From NCBI RefSeq assembly GCF_019285515.1, contig NZ_CP079095.1, positions 1,054,001 through 1,118,000 of the forward strand: a DNA stretch of 64,000 bases, read 5' to 3'. This document shows, in pieces, positions 27,125 through 33,451 of this stretch. Numbering within the stretch: the first letter of the stretch is position 1; every line of letters begins with the position of its first letter. Position numbers and translations under genes: made by a program. Origin of the DNA: Methylococcus sp. Mc7 (lineage in GTDB: Bacteria > Pseudomonadota > Gammaproteobacteria > Methylococcales > Methylococcaceae). The notes beneath the pieces are model-generated. The model did not search any database and was not told where the DNA came from. It saw only the letters and a list, made by a program, of their open reading frames with translations.

Positions 27125-27985
27125 TCAAGCAGCGTCGACGAGGGCGTTGCGCAGCTTCTTCATCGCGCTGCTCTCGAGCTGGCGGATGCGCTCGGCGGAG
27201 ACGTTGTAGCGCGCCGCCAGATCGTGCAGCGTCAGCTTGTCTTCGCTGAGCCAGCGGCTGGCCACGATGTCGCGGCTGCGGTCGTCGAGCTGGCCGATGG
27301 CTTGCTGCAGTCTCTCCTGCTGGCGGTTTTCCCATTCGCTGTGCTCGATGAGCAGCGCCGGGTCCGCCCCCTCCTGCTGGAGATAATGGATGGGTGCGTG
27401 GCCCTCGCGGTCGTCGCCGTCATCCTCCCCGTGCGCCTCGAGCGCCATGTCCGGATTGTTCAGCCGGTTTTCCATCTTGTAGACGTCCTCGACGTCCACG
27501 CCCAGCTCCTCCGCAACCGCTGCGGCCTCCTCGGGGGTGAGCCAGCCCAGCCGGTTCTTCATCTTGCGCAGGTTGAAGAACAACTTGCGCTGGGCCTTGG
27601 TGGTGGCGATCTTTACGATGCGCCAGTTCTGGATGATGAATTCGTGGATCTCGGCGCGGATCCAGTGCACCGCGAACGAAACCAGCCGCACGCCGACGTC
27701 CGGATCGTAGCGCTTGACCGCCTTCATCAGACCGATGTTGCCCTCCTGGATCAGGTCGGCCAGCGGCAGGCCGTAGCCGAGGTAACCCCGCGCGATGTAG
27801 GCCACGAAACGCAGGTTCGCCAGCACCAGGCGCCGGGCGGCCTCCAGGTCCTGCTCGTCGCGGAAACGGATGGCCAGTTCCCGCTCCTCGTCGGCATCCA
27901 GCCGCGGCAGGCGGTTCACCGCGGCGAAATAATCGTCGATGGAGCCGAGGGGCAAATTGGTCGGGAGAGTCAATTCGTGAGTCAT
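27125..27985 (-). CDS. rpoH: RNA polymerase heat-shock sigma factor, sigma-32
   Basis: 286 residues. Region 2 is clear: LRFVAYIARGYLGYGLPLAD and LIQEGNIGLMKAVKRYDPDVGVRL, then SFAVHWIRAEIHEFIIQNW. The RpoH-box region KAQRKLFFNLRKMKNRLGWL follows, and region 4.2 ends with DRSRDIVASRWLSEDKLTL and the helix-turn-helix YNVSAERIRQLESSAMKKLR. It directs RNA polymerase to heat-shock promoters. The start is the ATG at 27985; the upstream open frame is ftsX shadow. It lies downstream of ftsX, as in other gammaproteobacteria, and has a CIRCE operator 29 bases upstream of its start. Confidence 0.95.
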   Translation of the reverse strand: MTHELTLPTNLPLGSIDDYFAAVNRLPRLDADEERELAIRFRDEQDLEAARRLVLANLRFVAYIARGYLGYGLPLADLIQEGNIGLMKAVKRYDPDVGVRLVSFAVHWIRAEIHEFIIQNWRIVKIATTKAQRKLFFNLRKMKNRLGWLTPEEAAAVAEELGVDVEDVYKMENRLNNPDMALEAHGEDDGDDREGHAPIHYLQQEGADPALLIEHSEWENRQQERLQQAIGQLDDRSRDIVASRWLSEDKLTLHDLAARYNVSAERIRQLESSAMKKLRNALVDAA

Positions 27986-28014
27986 GGAATGCCCTGTTGT
28001 GATGGGGATGGGTT

Positions 28015-28041
28015 TTAGCACTCGTCCCATTTGAGTGCCAA
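28015..28041. promoter_or_regulatory. CIRCE element (HrcA operator) upstream of rpoH
   Basis: TTAGCACTC (28015-28023), nine bases, then GAGTGCCAA (28033-28041). This is the CIRCE consensus TTAGCACTC-N9-GAGTGCTAA with one substitution and exact spacing. It is centred about 43 bases upstream of the rpoH ATG. HrcA, which binds CIRCE, would repress rpoH at normal temperature. CIRCE is classically found at groESL and hrcA-grpE-dnaK. Confidence 0.85.
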
Positions 28042-28086
28042 AACTAGCGCAAGTTCCTTGCTTCGGCAAGCCCTCGCGCCTGCCGC

Positions 28087-29085
28087 TCACTCGGGACGCA
28101 TGTCCCGCAGGTGCTGGATGAGCACGGCGAAGGCGCCGGCTATCCCTAAGAAACAGGCGATACCGATCAGCGCCATCGTCTCCTGAAAACCGAGAAAGGC
28201 CAGGGAAAAGTCGCTGCCGTAGAGCACGTTGAGCTGGCGGATCGGCGCCCTGACGATCAGCAGCATGACGCCGACGACGATCCACGCGCCGATGCTGCCG
28301 AGGAAGCCGTACCAGAAACCGGTATAGAGAAAAGGCCGCCGGATGAACCGGTCGGTCGCGCCCAGCAGCTTCTGCACGATGATTTCCTCGCGGCGGCCGT
28401 ACAGCTCCAGGCGGATGGTGTTGCCGATGATGAACACCACCGCGGCCGCCAGCAATGCCCCGAGGACGCCGAAACTGCGTTCGGCGACCTGGAGCATGGC
28501 ATGGAGACGGTGCATCCACTGGATGTCGCTCTGCACCATATCGACTTCGGGCAGGGCTTTGAGTTCGGCGACGAGGCGTTCCACCTGCCCGGGCTGGGCC
28601 AGCGAATCCTTGGGACGTATGCCGATCACCACCGGCAGCGGGTTGAAATTCAAGGCCGACAAGGCTTCGCCGAAACCGCTGTAGGTCTTCAATTGCTCGA
28701 TTCCGGCTTCCTTGGTGACGAGCCGCGTCTCGGCGATCTGGGCGTGGCTTTTCAGCCGGTCAGCCAGCTTGCGTCCGGCATCGTTGGACAGATCGGGCTT
28801 GAGGTAAAGCGAAATCTCGTTGGTCGCCTCCAGGTCTCCGCCGACCAGGCGGAGGTTCTTCACCAGCACGTGAAAACTGGTGGGCAGCGCCAGCGTGGCG
28901 GCGATGACCAGGAGGGTGAGCGCCATGGCGAAAGGCGTGCGCCGCATCCGCCACAGCGCCTCCTTCGCGGTCTGCACGTGCGAAACCAGGTAGCTCTGCA
29001 GCCGGTCGACCAGGGTCGGACCGCTGCGTCTCCGGGGCGCGGGCGGCGCGACCCGCCGCTGAGCACGACGGCGCTGCCGTCTCAT
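28087..29085 (-). CDS. ftsX: Cell-division ABC transporter permease FtsX
   Basis: 332 residues. A basic cytoplasmic N-terminus (Arg-rich, about 35 residues) is followed by TM1 (ALTLLVIAATLALPTSFHVLV), a large periplasmic domain with the sequence GDLEATNEISLYLKPDLS, and then three C-terminal TM segments of the FtsX/MacB permease domain. With FtsE it links ATP hydrolysis to activation of septal amidases. The ATG at 29085 overlaps the ftsE stop (ATGA), so translation is coupled. Order ftsY-ftsE-ftsX-rpoH is conserved in gammaproteobacteria. Confidence 0.92.
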   Translation of the reverse strand: MRRQRRRAQRRVAPPAPRRRSGPTLVDRLQSYLVSHVQTAKEALWRMRRTPFAMALTLLVIAATLALPTSFHVLVKNLRLVGGDLEATNEISLYLKPDLSNDAGRKLADRLKSHAQIAETRLVTKEAGIEQLKTYSGFGEALSALNFNPLPVVIGIRPKDSLAQPGQVERLVAELKALPEVDMVQSDIQWMHRLHAMLQVAERSFGVLGALLAAAVVFIIGNTIRLELYGRREEIIVQKLLGATDRFIRRPFLYTGFWYGFLGSIGAWIVVGVMLLIVRAPIRQLNVLYGSDFSLAFLGFQETMALIGIACFLGIAGAFAVLIQHLRDMRPE

Positions 29086-29744
29086 GCCCCCACCTCCGAC
29101 AGGCTTCCGCGCTGCAGGCGCAAGACCCGCCCCCCAGCCCGCGAGATCAGCTGTTCGTCGTGGCTGGCGATGAGCAGGGTCACGCCGAGATCGTTGAAAT
29201 CGCGGAAGATGTCCATGACCTCCCGCGCGGCCTCCGGATCGAGGTTGCCGGTGGGCTCGTCGGCGAGGATGAAGTCCGGCTTGTGGACGATCGCCCGGGC
29301 GATGCCGACGCGCTGCTGCTCGCCCCCGGACAGGGTCTGCGGCAGCCGCTTCTCCTTGGACAAGAGCCCCACCTTGCCGAGTGCCGCACGCACCCGCCGG
29401 CTGACCTCGCCCGGGTTGAATCCGGCGATGACCAGCGGCAAAGCGACATTCTCGAACACGGAGCGGTCGTACAGCAGCTTGTAGTCCTGAAAGATCAGGC
29501 CGAGCTTGCGCCGGATATAGGGAATCTCCCGGTTGGAGGCATGGGTGATGTTCCGGCCGTCCAGCACGATCTGGCCGCGCGTGGCCCGCTCGATCACGGC
29601 GACCAGCTTGAGCAGAGTGCTCTTGCCGGCCCCCGAATGGCCGGTGAGGAACACCCGCTCGCCGCGACCGATGTGGAAGCTGACGTCGTGCAGGGCTTCG
29701 CCGAACTCGGGATAGCGCTTGTAGACCTCTTTGAATTCCAGCAC
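29082..29744 (-). CDS. ftsE: Cell-division ATP-binding protein FtsE
   Basis: 220 residues. Walker A is GHSGAGKSTLLKL, the Q-loop IFQDYKLL, the ABC signature LSGGEQQRVGIARAI, Walker B FILADEPTGNLDPEA and the H-loop SHDEQL. Start choice: the open frame runs to 29816 but this overlaps the upstream gene; the GTG at 29744 lies 4 bases after its stop and gives the normal FtsE start (V)LEFKEVYKRYPE and a normal length (E. coli 222). Its ribosome site would be GAGG inside the preceding stop region. Confidence 0.92.
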   Translation of the reverse strand: MLEFKEVYKRYPEFGEALHDVSFHIGRGERVFLTGHSGAGKSTLLKLVAVIERATRGQIVLDGRNITHASNREIPYIRRKLGLIFQDYKLLYDRSVFENVALPLVIAGFNPGEVSRRVRAALGKVGLLSKEKRLPQTLSGGEQQRVGIARAIVHKPDFILADEPTGNLDPEAAREVMDIFRDFNDLGVTLLIASHDEQLISRAGGRVLRLQRGSLSEVGA

Positions 29745-29748
29745 GGCC

Positions 29749-31764
29749 TCAATGCAAGCGGGCGGTCCCGCTCGTCTCTTCCTCGGCGAACAGGGCGTCG
29801 ATGAACTGGGTGGCATCGAAGTCGCGCAGATCGTCGATGCCTTCCCCGATGCCGATGAAGCGTATGGGGATTCCGAACTGCTGCGCCAGCGCGAAGATCA
29901 CCCCGCCTTTGGCGGTGCCGTCCAGCTTGGTCAATGCCAGCCCTGTCAGGCCGACCGCCTCGTTGAACAGCTTGGCCTGGGACATGGCGTTCTGGCCGGT
30001 GCCCGCGTCCAGCACCAGCAGCACCTCGTGCGGCGCGGTCTCGTCGAGACGGCCGATGATGCGCTTGATCTTGCTCAGCTCTTCCATCAGGTTCGACTTG
30101 GTGTGCAGCCGGCCCGCGGTATCGGCGATCAGCACGTCGACCCCGCGCGCCTTGGCGGCCTCCACGGCGTCGTAGATCACCGAAGCCGAATCGGCCCCGC
30201 TGTGCTGGGCGATCACCGCGATCCTATTGCGTTCGCCCCAGGTCTGGAGCTGCTCGACGGCGGCGGCGCGGAAGGTGTCCCCGGCGGCCAGCATGACGCT
30301 GTGGCCCTCGTTCTGCAGCCGTTTGGCGAGCTTGCCGATGGTCGTGGTCTTGCCCACGCCGTTGACCCCCACCACCAGAATGACGAAGGGCCGGACCTCC
30401 GGCGGGATGACCAGCGGCACGCTGCAGGGGCGGACGATGTCGAGCAGGCGGCCGCGCAGACGGTTACGCAGGGATTCGCCGTCGGCCAGTTCCTGCTTCT
30501 CCAGGCCCGAGCCCAGATCCGCGACGATTTCCCGAGTCACGTTGACGCCGACGTCGGCCATCAGCAATTGCTCTTCGATCTCGTCCAGCAACTCGCGGTC
30601 GATGCGGCCCCGGCCCAGGGCGGCAAGCAAGCCGGTCAGGCCGCTGCGGGTCTTGCCGAGCTGGCCGCGCAGGCGCTCGAACAGGGTCTCCGGCGCAGGC
30701 AGCGGAGGTACCGCCTCGACCGGCGGGCGCACCGGCACCACTTCGGGCACGGCGGCCGCCGCCGGCAGGCGCCGGCGCAGGTAGACGTTGATATGCACCA
30801 CGTTGAGCAGCAGCAGCGCCGCCACGGCCTGGTGCGCGACGGCGACCGCCACCGGCAGCCGCATCAGGACGCTCAGTACGCCGAGGCCGACCTGCAGCAG
30901 CAACAGGAAGCTCAGCAGCACCGCCGGCTTGCTGATCGGGGCCGCATTGCGGTTGGAACTGGCCCCCATGGCCAAGAGGCTCAGAACCAGGAACACCGCC
31001 ACGGCGCCGAGCCGGTGCGCGAAATGGATGGCCGCCCGCGCCTCGACCGGCAGCACCCCTCCCGCGTAGTCGGCGGCAATGTTCGGCCAAAGCGTGAAGC
31101 CGTGCCGCCAGTCCACCTCCGGCCAGGGCTGGCCCAGGCAGGTCGGAAAGTCCGGGCAGGCGAGGCCGGCACGCTGGGCCTCGGTCCAGCCGCCCAAGGC
31201 GATTTCGGCCAGCAGCAGTACCAAGCCGACCCGCGCCAGAAGGCGCAAGCCCGGTGCTCCCCGCACGGCCGCGTCGTCCACCCCCGGCTTGACGCCCAGA
31301 TACAGCCAGTAAGCGCAGCCAAGGGTCAGAAATCCGCTGAACAGGTGTGCGGCGGAAACCAGAGGCATCGGCGTGGCGTAGTGCCCCCACAAACCCAGCG
31401 CTGCCTGTACCCCCACCAATACCAGCAGTACCGCCAACAGCGACGCCGCCCTGCCGCGGTGGGCCGGCAGCCACCAAACCATGGCGATCAGGACCAACAC
31501 CAGCACGCCGAAAGCGCCGCCCAGATAAAGGTGGACCCAGCCCAGCCACAGCCATTTCAGCGCCTTGCCGCCGACCGCGGCCATCATCGCGGCGGACTGC
31601 TCGTCGACGACGGGCGCACCGTAGCAGCCGGGCCAGGCCGGGCAGCCGAGGCCGGCGTCGGCGATGCGGAGGAAAGCGCCGATCAGCAGCGCGCCCAATA
31701 GGAGGATCAGACCGAGAAAAGTGAGCTTTCTGAACATGGCATGTTGTTGTGAGTTATGGGCCAT
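29749..31764 (-). CDS. ftsY: Fusion of heme A synthase (CtaA/COX15) with SRP receptor FtsY
   Basis: One uninterrupted frame of 671 residues encodes two proteins that are normally separate. Residues 1-332 are a COX15/CtaA heme A synthase with eight TM segments and the heme-ligand histidines H78, H140, H247/H250 and H311; the motifs GLGCPAWPGCYG and GLACPDFPTCLGQ are diagnostic. Residues 333-359 are an Ala/Pro/Val linker. Residues 360-671 are the FtsY N and G domains: ELLDEIEEQLLMADVGVNVT, GVNGVGKTTTIGKLA (G1), AAGDTFRAAAVEQL, DTAGRLHTKSNLMEEL and TKLDGTAKGGVIFALA. The acidic A domain of ordinary FtsY is absent. GTG codons in the linker could start a free FtsY but none has a clear ribosome site. 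The gene lies where cox-assembly genes meet ftsE-ftsX-rpoH. Confidence 0.92.
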   Translation of the reverse strand: MAHNSQQHAMFRKLTFLGLILLLGALLIGAFLRIADAGLGCPAWPGCYGAPVVDEQSAAMMAAVGGKALKWLWLGWVHLYLGGAFGVLVLVLIAMVWWLPAHRGRAASLLAVLLVLVGVQAALGLWGHYATPMPLVSAAHLFSGFLTLGCAYWLYLGVKPGVDDAAVRGAPGLRLLARVGLVLLLAEIALGGWTEAQRAGLACPDFPTCLGQPWPEVDWRHGFTLWPNIAADYAGGVLPVEARAAIHFAHRLGAVAVFLVLSLLAMGASSNRNAAPISKPAVLLSFLLLLQVGLGVLSVLMRLPVAVAVAHQAVAALLLLNVVHINVYLRRRLPAAAAVPEVVPVRPPVEAVPPLPAPETLFERLRGQLGKTRSGLTGLLAALGRGRIDRELLDEIEEQLLMADVGVNVTREIVADLGSGLEKQELADGESLRNRLRGRLLDIVRPCSVPLVIPPEVRPFVILVVGVNGVGKTTTIGKLAKRLQNEGHSVMLAAGDTFRAAAVEQLQTWGERNRIAVIAQHSGADSASVIYDAVEAAKARGVDVLIADTAGRLHTKSNLMEELSKIKRIIGRLDETAPHEVLLVLDAGTGQNAMSQAKLFNEAVGLTGLALTKLDGTAKGGVIFALAQQFGIPIRFIGIGEGIDDLRDFDATQFIDALFAEEETSGTARLH

Positions 31765-31770
31765 CCGGCG

Positions 31771-32373
31771 TCAGCCGATCTGGGAGGCGCGTAGCAGGTG
31801 CTTGAGGTCCTTCAGCACGCCGTACGGATCGAAATCCGCATCGTAATACATCATCAGGTTGCCGAGCGGATCGAGCAGGAGAATCTGGCCCGGCTGCAGC
31901 GGGCCGCCGGCCGCCTTTTCCAGCTTTTCCCGTAAGGCGGGCGCGAGTCCGGCCACGGCCAGGAATTCGTCCTGCCGCAGCCAGTCGGCCAGCGGCCCCG
32001 CGGCCTCCGGATCGGCCAGCAGGAGGAGACGGCGCACCCTGGGAATTTCCTTGTTCAGCATCAGCCGCATCTGCCGGGTCTTGTACAGGTTCTGCCGGCA
32101 AACCTCGGCGCACGGGCCGTCGGCGACGCTCAGGACGATCCAGCGGCCCTTGAGCTGCTCCATCGATTCGGAGGAAGTGACCGGCGCCGCGAGCAATTCG
32201 CCGTAACCCAACGGTACGGCGGGGGTGACCAGGTGTCCGACGTTGCCCAGATCGCCCATCACCAGTTGCGGATGGCGGGCGAAATACCAGGCCGCGGCGA
32301 ACGGCACGATGCAAATCAGGGCGATGATGATGATGGTACGCTGGTTGCGCCGCTGGGTCGGAGTGAGTGCCAT
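31771..32373 (-). CDS. SCO1/SenC-like cytochrome oxidase assembly protein, membrane-anchored
   Basis: About 200 residues. One N-terminal TM anchor (TIIIIALICIVPFAAAWYFA) is followed by a periplasmic thioredoxin-like domain: LKGRWIVLSVADGPCAEVCRQNLY carries a CxxxC pair placed as in SCO1 copper chaperones, and PLGNLMMYYDADFDPYGVLKDL is a typical thioredoxin-fold end. Proteins of this size sit between SURF1 and CtaA in many proteobacterial cox operons, as here. The start at 32373 is chosen because the upstream frame to 32541 is SURF1 shadow. Confidence 0.75.
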   Translation of the reverse strand: MALTPTQRRNQRTIIIIALICIVPFAAAWYFARHPQLVMGDLGNVGHLVTPAVPLGYGELLAAPVTSSESMEQLKGRWIVLSVADGPCAEVCRQNLYKTRQMRLMLNKEIPRVRRLLLLADPEAAGPLADWLRQDEFLAVAGLAPALREKLEKAAGGPLQPGQILLLDPLGNLMMYYDADFDPYGVLKDLKHLLRASQIG

Positions 32374-32395
32374 GGCTGTGTGATAGTTCAAGAAA

Positions 32396-33136
32396 TCAGG
32401 GAGAAACGCCTGGATCCTGCGCCGCACCCGCCCTGAATCCATGGCGGAGAAACAGTCCCAGTGCGATCGCGGCGAAGGAAAACCACTGGATGGCGTAGCC
32501 CGTGCTTTTGTCCGGATCGACGTTGGCCGGCTTCCAATCACGCGCGTAGCCTTCGGACTCCCCCGCGTCCAGCAACACCTGGTAAGGCAGCAGACGGTAC
32601 CCGAGGCGCCGCTCCAACGCCTCCCGCTCCAGGACCTGCACCGTCGCCGGCCAGCCGGCGGCGGGGACTTCCGCGCCTTCCAGCTTCAAGCCCACGGCGG
32701 GAAAGCGCTCCACCACGCCGGTCAGCTCGACCGCGGGCACCCGGAGCGGCAGCTCGGGCAGCCGCCGGCGGTCGGGACCCGCGGGAATCCAGCCGCGATT
32801 GACCAGCACCGCCAGGTCCGAACCCGCGAGCCTGAGCGGAGTGAGCACGTGATAGCCGGCCTTGCCGCCGTGGACCTGGTTGTCCAGCAGGAACTGACGC
32901 CCGGCATCGTATTCCCCCTTCACCGCCACCCGCCGATAGCGTGGCGGCTCGGCCTCGGCGACGGACGGGTCGAGCCGCAGCGGCGGCTCGGCCGACTGGC
33001 TGGCAAACTGCGCCTGCAGCGCCCGCTTCTCGGCGGCCCGGTTGAGCTGCCAGCCCCCAAGGGAGCAGAACAGAGGCAATGCCAGCGCGATTCCGATGAC
33101 CGCAACCCCCGCGGGTTTGAAGCTATAATGCCTCAT
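32396..33136 (-). CDS. SURF1 family cytochrome oxidase assembly protein
   Basis: About 246 residues with one TM segment at each end (residues 10-30 and about 215-235) and a periplasmic beta domain between. SURF1 signatures: GGWQLNRAAEK after TM1, RYRRVAVKGEYD, GYHVLTPLRL, VLVNRGWIPAG, and near the end STGYAIQWFSFAAIALG. SURF1 proteins help insert heme A into subunit I of the aa3-type oxidase. This fits its position beside the heme A synthase domain. The start at 33136 is MRHYSFKPAGV. Confidence 0.9.
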   Translation of the reverse strand: MRHYSFKPAGVAVIGIALALPLFCSLGGWQLNRAAEKRALQAQFASQSAEPPLRLDPSVAEAEPPRYRRVAVKGEYDAGRQFLLDNQVHGGKAGYHVLTPLRLAGSDLAVLVNRGWIPAGPDRRRLPELPLRVPAVELTGVVERFPAVGLKLEGAEVPAAGWPATVQVLEREALERRLGYRLLPYQVLLDAGESEGYARDWKPANVDPDKSTGYAIQWFSFAAIALGLFLRHGFRAGAAQDPGVSP

Positions 33137-33184
33137 TTCGCAACCGTGGCCGGTGCGCCGCGTCCGTCGCCCAGGAATCCGAAC

Positions 33185-33451
33185 ATGCTGCCTAAAATCC
33201 TCATCGTGCTGGTACTGGTCGTGATCGTCGCCAGCCTGGGCTCCGCCTTGTTCTATCTGGTCAAGGACGGCGACCGCCGTTCGCCCAGGACCGTGCGCGC
33301 CCTGACGCTGCGCATCGGCCTGTCGATCGCGCTGTTCCTGGCGCTGCTGCTGGGGTATGCGCTGGGCCTCCTGCGTCCGCACGGGCTGCGCCCGGACGGA
33401 CCGGCCGCGTCGCCTCGAGCCACAGCCCCCGCCCAGGCAGATCCGCGCTGA
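33185..33451 (+). CDS. Twin transmembrane protein (DUF2909)
   Basis: 88 residues with two TM helices (about residues 5-26 and 44-63) joined by the loop LVKDGDRRSPRTVRALTLRI, the DUF2909 signature. These small proteins usually sit beside SURF1 in cox operons and probably help oxidase assembly. Here it is divergent from SURF1, with 48 bases between starts, so the two promoters must overlap. Confidence 0.8.
   Translation: MLPKILIVLVLVVIVASLGSALFYLVKDGDRRSPRTVRALTLRIGLSIALFLALLLGYALGLLRPHGLRPDGPAASPRATAPAQADPR

Follow-up and report, generated by a model that had tools for sequence, protein, structure and literature searches.

An in-frame fusion of CtaA and FtsY

Within a 64,000-nucleotide stretch of Methylococcus sp. 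Mc7 (contig NZ_CP079095.1, positions 1,054,001 to 1,118,000; hereafter the window), a single gene on the minus strand (29749..31764) joins the heme A synthase CtaA to FtsY, the essential signal recognition particle (SRP) receptor through which ribosomes dock at the cell membrane. We propose, at a probability of roughly 0.78, that the CtaA part is a permanent polytopic anchor of FtsY which replaces its A domain, and that catalysis has been lost in many lineages, that of the window included. Read from 31764 to 29749, the gene is one frame of 671 codons from the first ATG with zero internal stops, which confirms both the fusion and the exact coordinates given in a preliminary description of this DNA, where the strand had been omitted. 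The CtaA/COX15-derived membrane domain (30787..31764, residues 1-326) matched Pfam family COX15-CtaA (PF02628) over residues 13-322 with 206.3 bits (cut-off 29.9) and was aligned with Bacillus subtilis CtaA (6a2j); it is 86 and 89% identical to the corresponding parts in Methylococcus sp. STC_26 and M. capsulatus Texas. A proline-rich linker (30688..30786, residues 327-359) stands where the A domain of FtsY would be, and is followed by the amphipathic αN1 helix region (30610..30687, residues 360-385, TLFERLRGQLGKTRSGL...), which matches GFFARLKRSLLKTKENL of Escherichia coli FtsY in the alignment. The N and G (NG) domains of FtsY (29752..30642, residues 375-671) carry an SRP54_N match (375-436), an SRP54 GTPase match (459-659, 259.7 bits) and motifs G1 to G5. 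The protein scored 359.3 bits against the NCBIfam ftsY equivalog (TIGR00064; cut-off 260.7), and its best match among solved structures was E. coli FtsY (2yhs, E = 4e-118), in an alignment that spans the C-terminal part from before the αN1 helix to near the end. The Pfam and NCBIfam domain layouts thus bear out two earlier observations, that the G motifs are intact and that the A domain is missing.

Occurrence across the order

Far from being confined to the window, the fusion is the usual state of the order (taken as Methylococcales, from inference) outside two families, which we label f6 and f7 (f and g codes denote families and genera of the order). Among 143 order genomes examined at the locus, the window's included, 123 carry a CtaA-FtsY frame without a stop, although one of these frames opens at a contig end (G440) and another contains four unknown residues (G455). 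In nine further genomes the frame is cut by a contig end; in G033, which is additional to the 143 and likewise cut, the CtaA tail and FtsY still share a 445-codon frame. The seven unfused genomes all belong to f6 and f7, and one genome (G020) gave no SRP54-family match at all. The remaining three are drafts with interrupted fusion frames: G014 (locus L106) has a frameshift in the linker and lacks the G4 stretch, G457 (L262) has a TGA stop inside transmembrane helix 8, and G600 (L190) has a frameshift at a lysine/arginine run in the N domain. Such interruptions are what one would point to in arguing that the fusion is a sequencing or assembly artefact hiding a missed stop or frameshift. We reject this reading, whose probability is practically nil given 123 uninterrupted frames in as many genomes: the window genome is complete in one contig of 4.0 Mb, and in none of the fused-clade loci read did two clean genes appear.

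A wider search of 311 order genomes found at least 150 in which the window protein was matched over nearly its full length. Frame lengths in this search run through stops (G457, given as 665, is really 314 + stop + 350), and in many rows the matched range contains a stop, which in the cases that could be checked was mostly C-terminal. A further 137 order genomes were scored by the length of the FtsY frame alone (the CtaA part was read only in the 123): the frame was ≥558 aa in 103 and shorter in 10 (nine at contig ends, plus the frameshifted G600), 12 were unfused members of f6, and 12 gave no FtsY above the cut-off. Outside the order, searches stayed within the phylum. No full-length match was found among the best ~150 matches listed for 365 other class members (class sample n = 369, of which G000, G041, G043 and G049 belong to the order), nor among the best ~150 listed for the 397 others in a phylum sample of 398. 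A link with methane oxidation was considered and dropped: a pmoA-family search was positive in 41 of 61 genomes, including six of the seven unfused f6/f7 genomes (all except G052), and there is therefore no clean correlation between fusion and methane oxidation.

Residue conservation in the fused CtaA domain

Residue places were taken from a profile alignment with 6a2j and are numbered for B. subtilis as in PMC12808453, residues 75, 78, 140, 250 and 311 of the window protein corresponding to E57, H60, H123, H216 and H278. All four heme-ligand histidines are present in the window, as had been claimed (H78 and H140 in the N bundle, the heme b ligands H250 and H311 in the C bundle), as are both cysteine pairs (C41 and C47 of extracellular loop 1 [ECL1], and Cys203/209 in the C bundle). 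The preliminary description took the fused CtaA for a working enzyme and overlooked that the E-x-x-H-R motif lacks its catalytic Glu (E57 in B. subtilis, E166 in yeast): the window protein's KALKWLWLGWVH holds no acidic residue, and reads LWLGWVH where related copies read KEMxHR. According to passages of PMC8239418, PMC12808453 and PMC13213658, the N bundle holds the substrate heme o and the catalytic Glu, and the C bundle holds heme b. In yeast Cox15, E166A is reported to abolish heme a with protein level and oligomers unaffected (a passage of PMC13213658), and one study describes the Glu as strictly conserved over its alignment (a passage of PMC12808453). With the Glu lost, the fused copy in the window has probably ceased to work as a heme A synthase, and would serve as an anchor.

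Conservation differs between the two halves of the fused domain. Over the 123 fusions, the N half keeps Glu75 in 37, His78 in 79, His140 in 82, Cys41 in 94 and Cys47 in 93, although column placement is uncertain in the most decayed N halves; the C half keeps His250 in 120, His311 in 121, and Cys203 and Cys209 in 120 each. Leaving out G440 and G455 (n = 121) changed little (Glu 37, H78 79, H140 81, Cys41 94, Cys47 93; H250 118, H311 119, Cys203 118, Cys209 118). The full N-half catalytic set is kept in 31 of the 123 and the Glu was not seen in 86, and 88 of the 92 fusions with a damaged N half retain Cys203/209 and both heme b histidines. In unfused CtaA of f6 and f7 the full catalytic set is present in all seven copies. 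In B. subtilis CtaA, the ECL1 cysteines matter for activity and the ECL3 pair is dispensable (a passage of PMC8239418), so the residues best kept here are not those that synthesis needs. Decay goes further in some genera. The N half is shorter in g315 (frames of 565-571 aa in the six genomes read), and in two g314 genomes (G636 and G637) the membrane part gave no COX15-CtaA match at E 0.001; 6 and 7 hydrophobic segments remain there and the frame is intact. On a quick FtsY tree, the distribution of the intact catalytic state needs at least 14 changes, and that of heme b ligand loss needs three.

In five Methylococcus pairs, the nonsynonymous to synonymous rate ratio (dN/dS) stayed under 1 in all regions, at 0.14-0.30 in the N half, 0.09-0.11 in the C half, 0.29-0.58 in the linker and 0.07-0.10 in NG. 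Of 15 pairs run, both halves gave a defined ratio in 14, and the N half was the looser one in 12 of these. On another reading, the C bundle is kept for binding heme b, for heme or redox sensing or for oligomerizing, and regulates FtsY. The heme b ligands and ECL3 cysteines preserved in those 88 damaged fusions would fit, as would a passage of PMC7327177 in which the C bundle with heme b is the core of the Aquifex aeolicus heme A synthase (HAS) trimer. Structural need accounts for the identical pattern, however, and G614, G636 and G665 have lost one or both heme b ligands and kept the fusion, and we consider such a role quite unlikely. Its fullest form would be a heme b-carrying SRP receptor, possibly trimeric like its ancestor, with FtsY gated by heme, oxygen or redox state; this is similarly a long shot, but a heme b-gated FtsY, if true, would tie membrane protein insertion to respiratory status.

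A second, free CtaA

The preliminary description had proposed looking for a second, free ftsY or ctaA in the genome. For ftsY there is none: a whole-genome search for the SRP54 family found two places in the window genome, the fusion and one 474-codon frame, which from its length we take to be Ffh. A free CtaA of another type does exist, at C1:3029569-3030456 (locus L155, C1:3025000-3035000). Across 24 free second copies (one per genome), the Glu, H123 and both heme b histidines are always present, and only the first cysteine pair occurs; these features fit type 1.3 of Table 1 in PMC8239418. As an observation in its own right, Asn replaces the heme o ligand His60 in all 24 of these copies, in which Glu57 and His123 are invariant. 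The free CtaA is likely to be the heme A synthase of the window organism. The earlier wording, that FtsY is welded to a respiratory enzyme, is overstated for the window: the catalytic Glu is gone, a second CtaA lies elsewhere and the catalytic half decays across the order.

The fused site was intact in six of the eight genomes in which only one CtaA was found, vs 25 of the 115 scored with a free copy (G444 and G455 are counted among the latter though never searched for one). The two sole-CtaA exceptions are incomplete genomes (G050 85%, G618 92%), as is G035 (83%), one of the six. These counts are suggestive of a link between a sole CtaA and an intact fused site. On a bifunctional reading, the fused domain of the window both makes heme A and holds FtsY at the membrane, a pairing that might couple the insertion of membrane proteins to oxidase assembly. 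Such a protein could be expected to look as the window's does at its four heme ligands and both cysteine pairs, its gene lies behind SURF1, and the fusions with a full catalytic set include all four g310 genomes read, in which it is the only CtaA found. The Glu, however, is absent in the window as in most fusions, and a free CtaA is at hand whose kind keeps the Glu, H123 and heme b ligands throughout; we therefore regard bifunctionality in the window as unlikely, if worth keeping in mind.

The FtsY part and its putative membrane anchor

In the fused proteins the acidic A domain of FtsY and its αA1 lipid helix are missing, and a predicted eight-helix membrane domain takes their place. Hydropathy gave eight hydrophobic segments in 87 of the 123 fusions and seven in the window protein; an AlphaFold2 model from three sequences had a mean pLDDT of 39.5, too low for a fold search. 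The even helix number of CtaA and the arginines of YLRRRL, just behind its last helix, would place the FtsY part in the cytoplasm, and a cytoplasmic C-terminus of the CtaA domain agrees with known CtaA topology. Within αN1, L365 and L369 are found in 123/123 fusions and Phe or Tyr at the place of Phe196 in 106/123. Motifs G1-G5 are nearly invariant over the 123, a conservation that is partly circular because G1, G3 and TFRAAA also served to pick the frames. Work by Zelazny from 1997 is reportedly the source for replacement of the A domain by membrane anchors in E. coli. Passages of PMC5533587 and PMC2780400 state that either of two unrelated membrane anchors can stand in for the A domain in membrane binding in E. 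coli if αN1 is kept, and that αN1 keeps the tethered receptor closed until SRP binds. With the αN1 residues conserved, the fusions follow this E. coli rule for a permanent tether.

We therefore picture an SRP receptor that is old and occurs across most of the order, its A domain having given way to the CtaA polypeptide. The eight-helix CtaA domain would insert in the membrane, its C-terminus facing the cytoplasm, and FtsY NG would be tethered there permanently by a linker a few tens of residues long; as the autoinhibitory αN1 is retained, activation of the receptor would still depend on SRP. Heme A synthesis would no longer be required of the fused domain in many lineages, almost all of which have a free CtaA. 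The heme o half and catalytic Glu would then erode and the helices, usually with the heme b C bundle, would stay as a folded anchor, the C bundle adjoining FtsY being kept as a stable fold.

Probable translation as one chain

This model presupposes that CtaA and FtsY are made as one polypeptide. Start and linker counts were taken over 120 fusions (the 123 minus G618, G620 and G621). The ATG common to relatives is the second one, at residue 10 (an ATG is there in 116/120), so the product may be 662 aa. No ATG occurs within aligned residues 322-400 in 96/120 fusions, and the best internal ATG column is filled in 6/120, vs 116/120 at the shared start of the gene. The linker is always in frame, at 17-64 residues (median 40). 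Alternatively, FtsY could arise as a protein of its own, through internal initiation in the linker or through cleavage, the fusion being no more than a shared frame. GTG and TTG codons are present in the linker, which is long and proline-rich; nonetheless, no start codon is conserved there and the frame is kept although linker length varies, and this alternative seems very improbable.

At the shared ATG (window positions 31735-31764 and the equivalent in relatives), AGGA, GGAG or GAGG occurs at -16 to -4 in only 3/116 genes (2/115 otherwise scored), and the translation start of the fused gene may be coupled or independent of a Shine-Dalgarno site. Because the gene's own starts lack Shine-Dalgarno sites, a Shine-Dalgarno test for an internal start is blind.

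Points against the anchor reading

Several observations weigh against the proposal that the fused CtaA is an anchor which has lost catalysis. The fusions with a full catalytic set (31/123) may be active, and "anchor only" is untrue of the order as a whole. The window protein itself retains H78, H140 and both cysteine pairs, with purifying selection acting on the N half, and its fused domain may have residual or altered activity. Published HAS subtypes carry E57N, E57K/H123N or H60N (Table 1 of PMC8239418), and the Asn at the H60 place in all 24 free copies means that one changed ligand is no proof of lost function. The C half, not the N half, is the looser one in two of the 14 definable pairs (G025/G029 and G478/G486). 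The association between a sole CtaA and an intact site has a naive p of 0.003; with only 4-5 independent pairs, it is not significant on the tree. Finally, initiation at an internal GTG or TTG, or proteolysis, is compatible with the sequence.

Relation to known systems

As an FtsY (TIGR00064; E. coli 2yhs), the fusion has the usual N and G domains, αN1 and G motifs, is the sole copy in its genome and lies in an ftsE-ftsX-rpoH neighborhood; it differs in its N-terminal membrane domain, as set out above. As a CtaA/Cox15 (B. subtilis 6a2j), it is a two-bundle membrane protein with four heme-ligand histidines and cysteine pairs in the extracellular loops, and by its two cysteine pairs it would belong to class B type 1.1 as given in a passage of PMC8239418; it differs in its C-terminal FtsY, in lacking the Glu in the window and most other fused copies, and in an N half that decays. 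CtaA is also joined to another protein in CtaA-CtaB fusions (listed in Table 1 of PMC8239418), but there the partner comes from the same pathway, whereas here it is an unrelated essential targeting GTPase. Tethered FtsY has precedents: a passage of PMC2780400 names a transmembrane FtsY of Gram-positives, and one of PMC5533587 names Streptomyces lividans motifs, engineered 3L-Pf3 and the Zelazny 1997 fusions. These resemble the present proteins in a permanent tether upstream of NG with αN1 kept, but they are single helices, lipid helices or laboratory constructs, whereas here the fusion is natural and its partner a polytopic enzyme, in most families of the order. In line with the earlier claim that the arrangement is undescribed, no description of a CtaA-FtsY fusion was found in the open-access literature as represented by titles, abstract starts and passages; both search words occur, but apart, in passages of PMC7050145, PMC3403918 and PMC3568101.

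The mode of FtsY attachment to the membrane, and the need for the receptor to cycle, have long been debated for the bacterial SRP. CtaA and FtsY are known families, a tethered FtsY is a known idea and the fusion sequences are surely already in protein databases, but to our knowledge this would be the first natural polytopic, enzyme-derived FtsY anchor. Most of the order appears to be a natural trial of the permanent tether, one in which the anchor is polytopic and αN1 is retained. An enzyme also appears to be becoming a structural anchor stepwise, with a catalytic set that is intact, lost or, in the two g314 genomes, beyond recognition by the family model. Domain-based annotation may call the gene a heme A synthase or FtsY alone, which could mislead functional and essentiality work on methanotrophs.

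Gene order and origin of the fusion

In the direction of transcription, the window has SURF1 (cytochrome oxidase assembly; 32396..33382, PF02104, 145.2 bits), a conserved hypothetical gene (31771..32541, longest frame, no Pfam match), the fusion, an ftsE-like ABC ATPase (29082..29816, PF00005), ftsX (28087..29085, FtsX_ECD and FtsX matches) and an rpoH-like sigma factor (27125..28519, Sigma70_r2 and r4), all on the minus strand. The longest frame of the ftsE-like gene starts before the fusion gene ends, overlapping its 3' end. The rpoH-like gene probably starts further in than its longest frame does. The fusion thus lies, as first described, at a seam between cox-assembly genes and ftsE-ftsX-rpoH. 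A 656-aa open reading frame on the plus strand over the bases of the fusion (29731-31701) is taken as a shadow frame, not a gene.

Gene order was surveyed at the loci of 50 fused relatives (up to 10 kb each, some shorter). The conserved hypothetical is upstream on the fusion strand in 47 and SURF1 in 45; it sits between SURF1 and ctaA in those 45 and alone upstream in 2 more. It also adjoins ctaA, on the side of SURF1, in all seven unfused genomes, and is a candidate oxidase assembly factor. An ftsE match lies 3' of the fusion in 28/50 loci and is missing there in some genera, some loci being cut short, so that the seam is more variable on its downstream side than on its upstream side. In all five unfused loci with both genes, ftsY-ftsE-ftsX-rpoH faces SURF1-hypothetical-ctaA on opposite strands, convergently. 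The two blocks are neighbors in the fused and the unfused state, turned relative to each other.

It had been suggested that loss of a ctaA stop codon would create the gene. Since the f6/f7 blocks are convergent, stop loss would be insufficient alone if that layout is ancestral, and an inversion or similar change would be needed besides. The fusion would result from a rearrangement placing ctaA before ftsY if the stop of ctaA and the start of ftsY were also lost; the polarity is not settled, and the reverse order of events is conceivable. A CtaA tree of 70 chosen rows groups the fused domains with the single CtaA of f6/f7, apart from the free second copies, at 100/100 support. In the quick FtsY tree, f7 falls among fused rows and f6 among outgroups, and approximately unbiased (AU) tests on FtsY keep both one fused clade (p = 0.77) and one order clade (p = 0.66). 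The CtaA search tree puts f6 and f7 inside the fused rows, and the AU test again keeps one fused clade (p = 0.33). With f7, or f6 and f7, among fused rows in the search trees, later fission in these families is possible, and the choice between a single gain and such fission is undecided. Genus g2 has a further CtaA unfused to FtsY, in G020 (L112:3897-4985) and G006 (C13:504126-505070); the G020 copy clusters with the fused type in the tree and adjoins genes read from their open reading frames as PstS-like.

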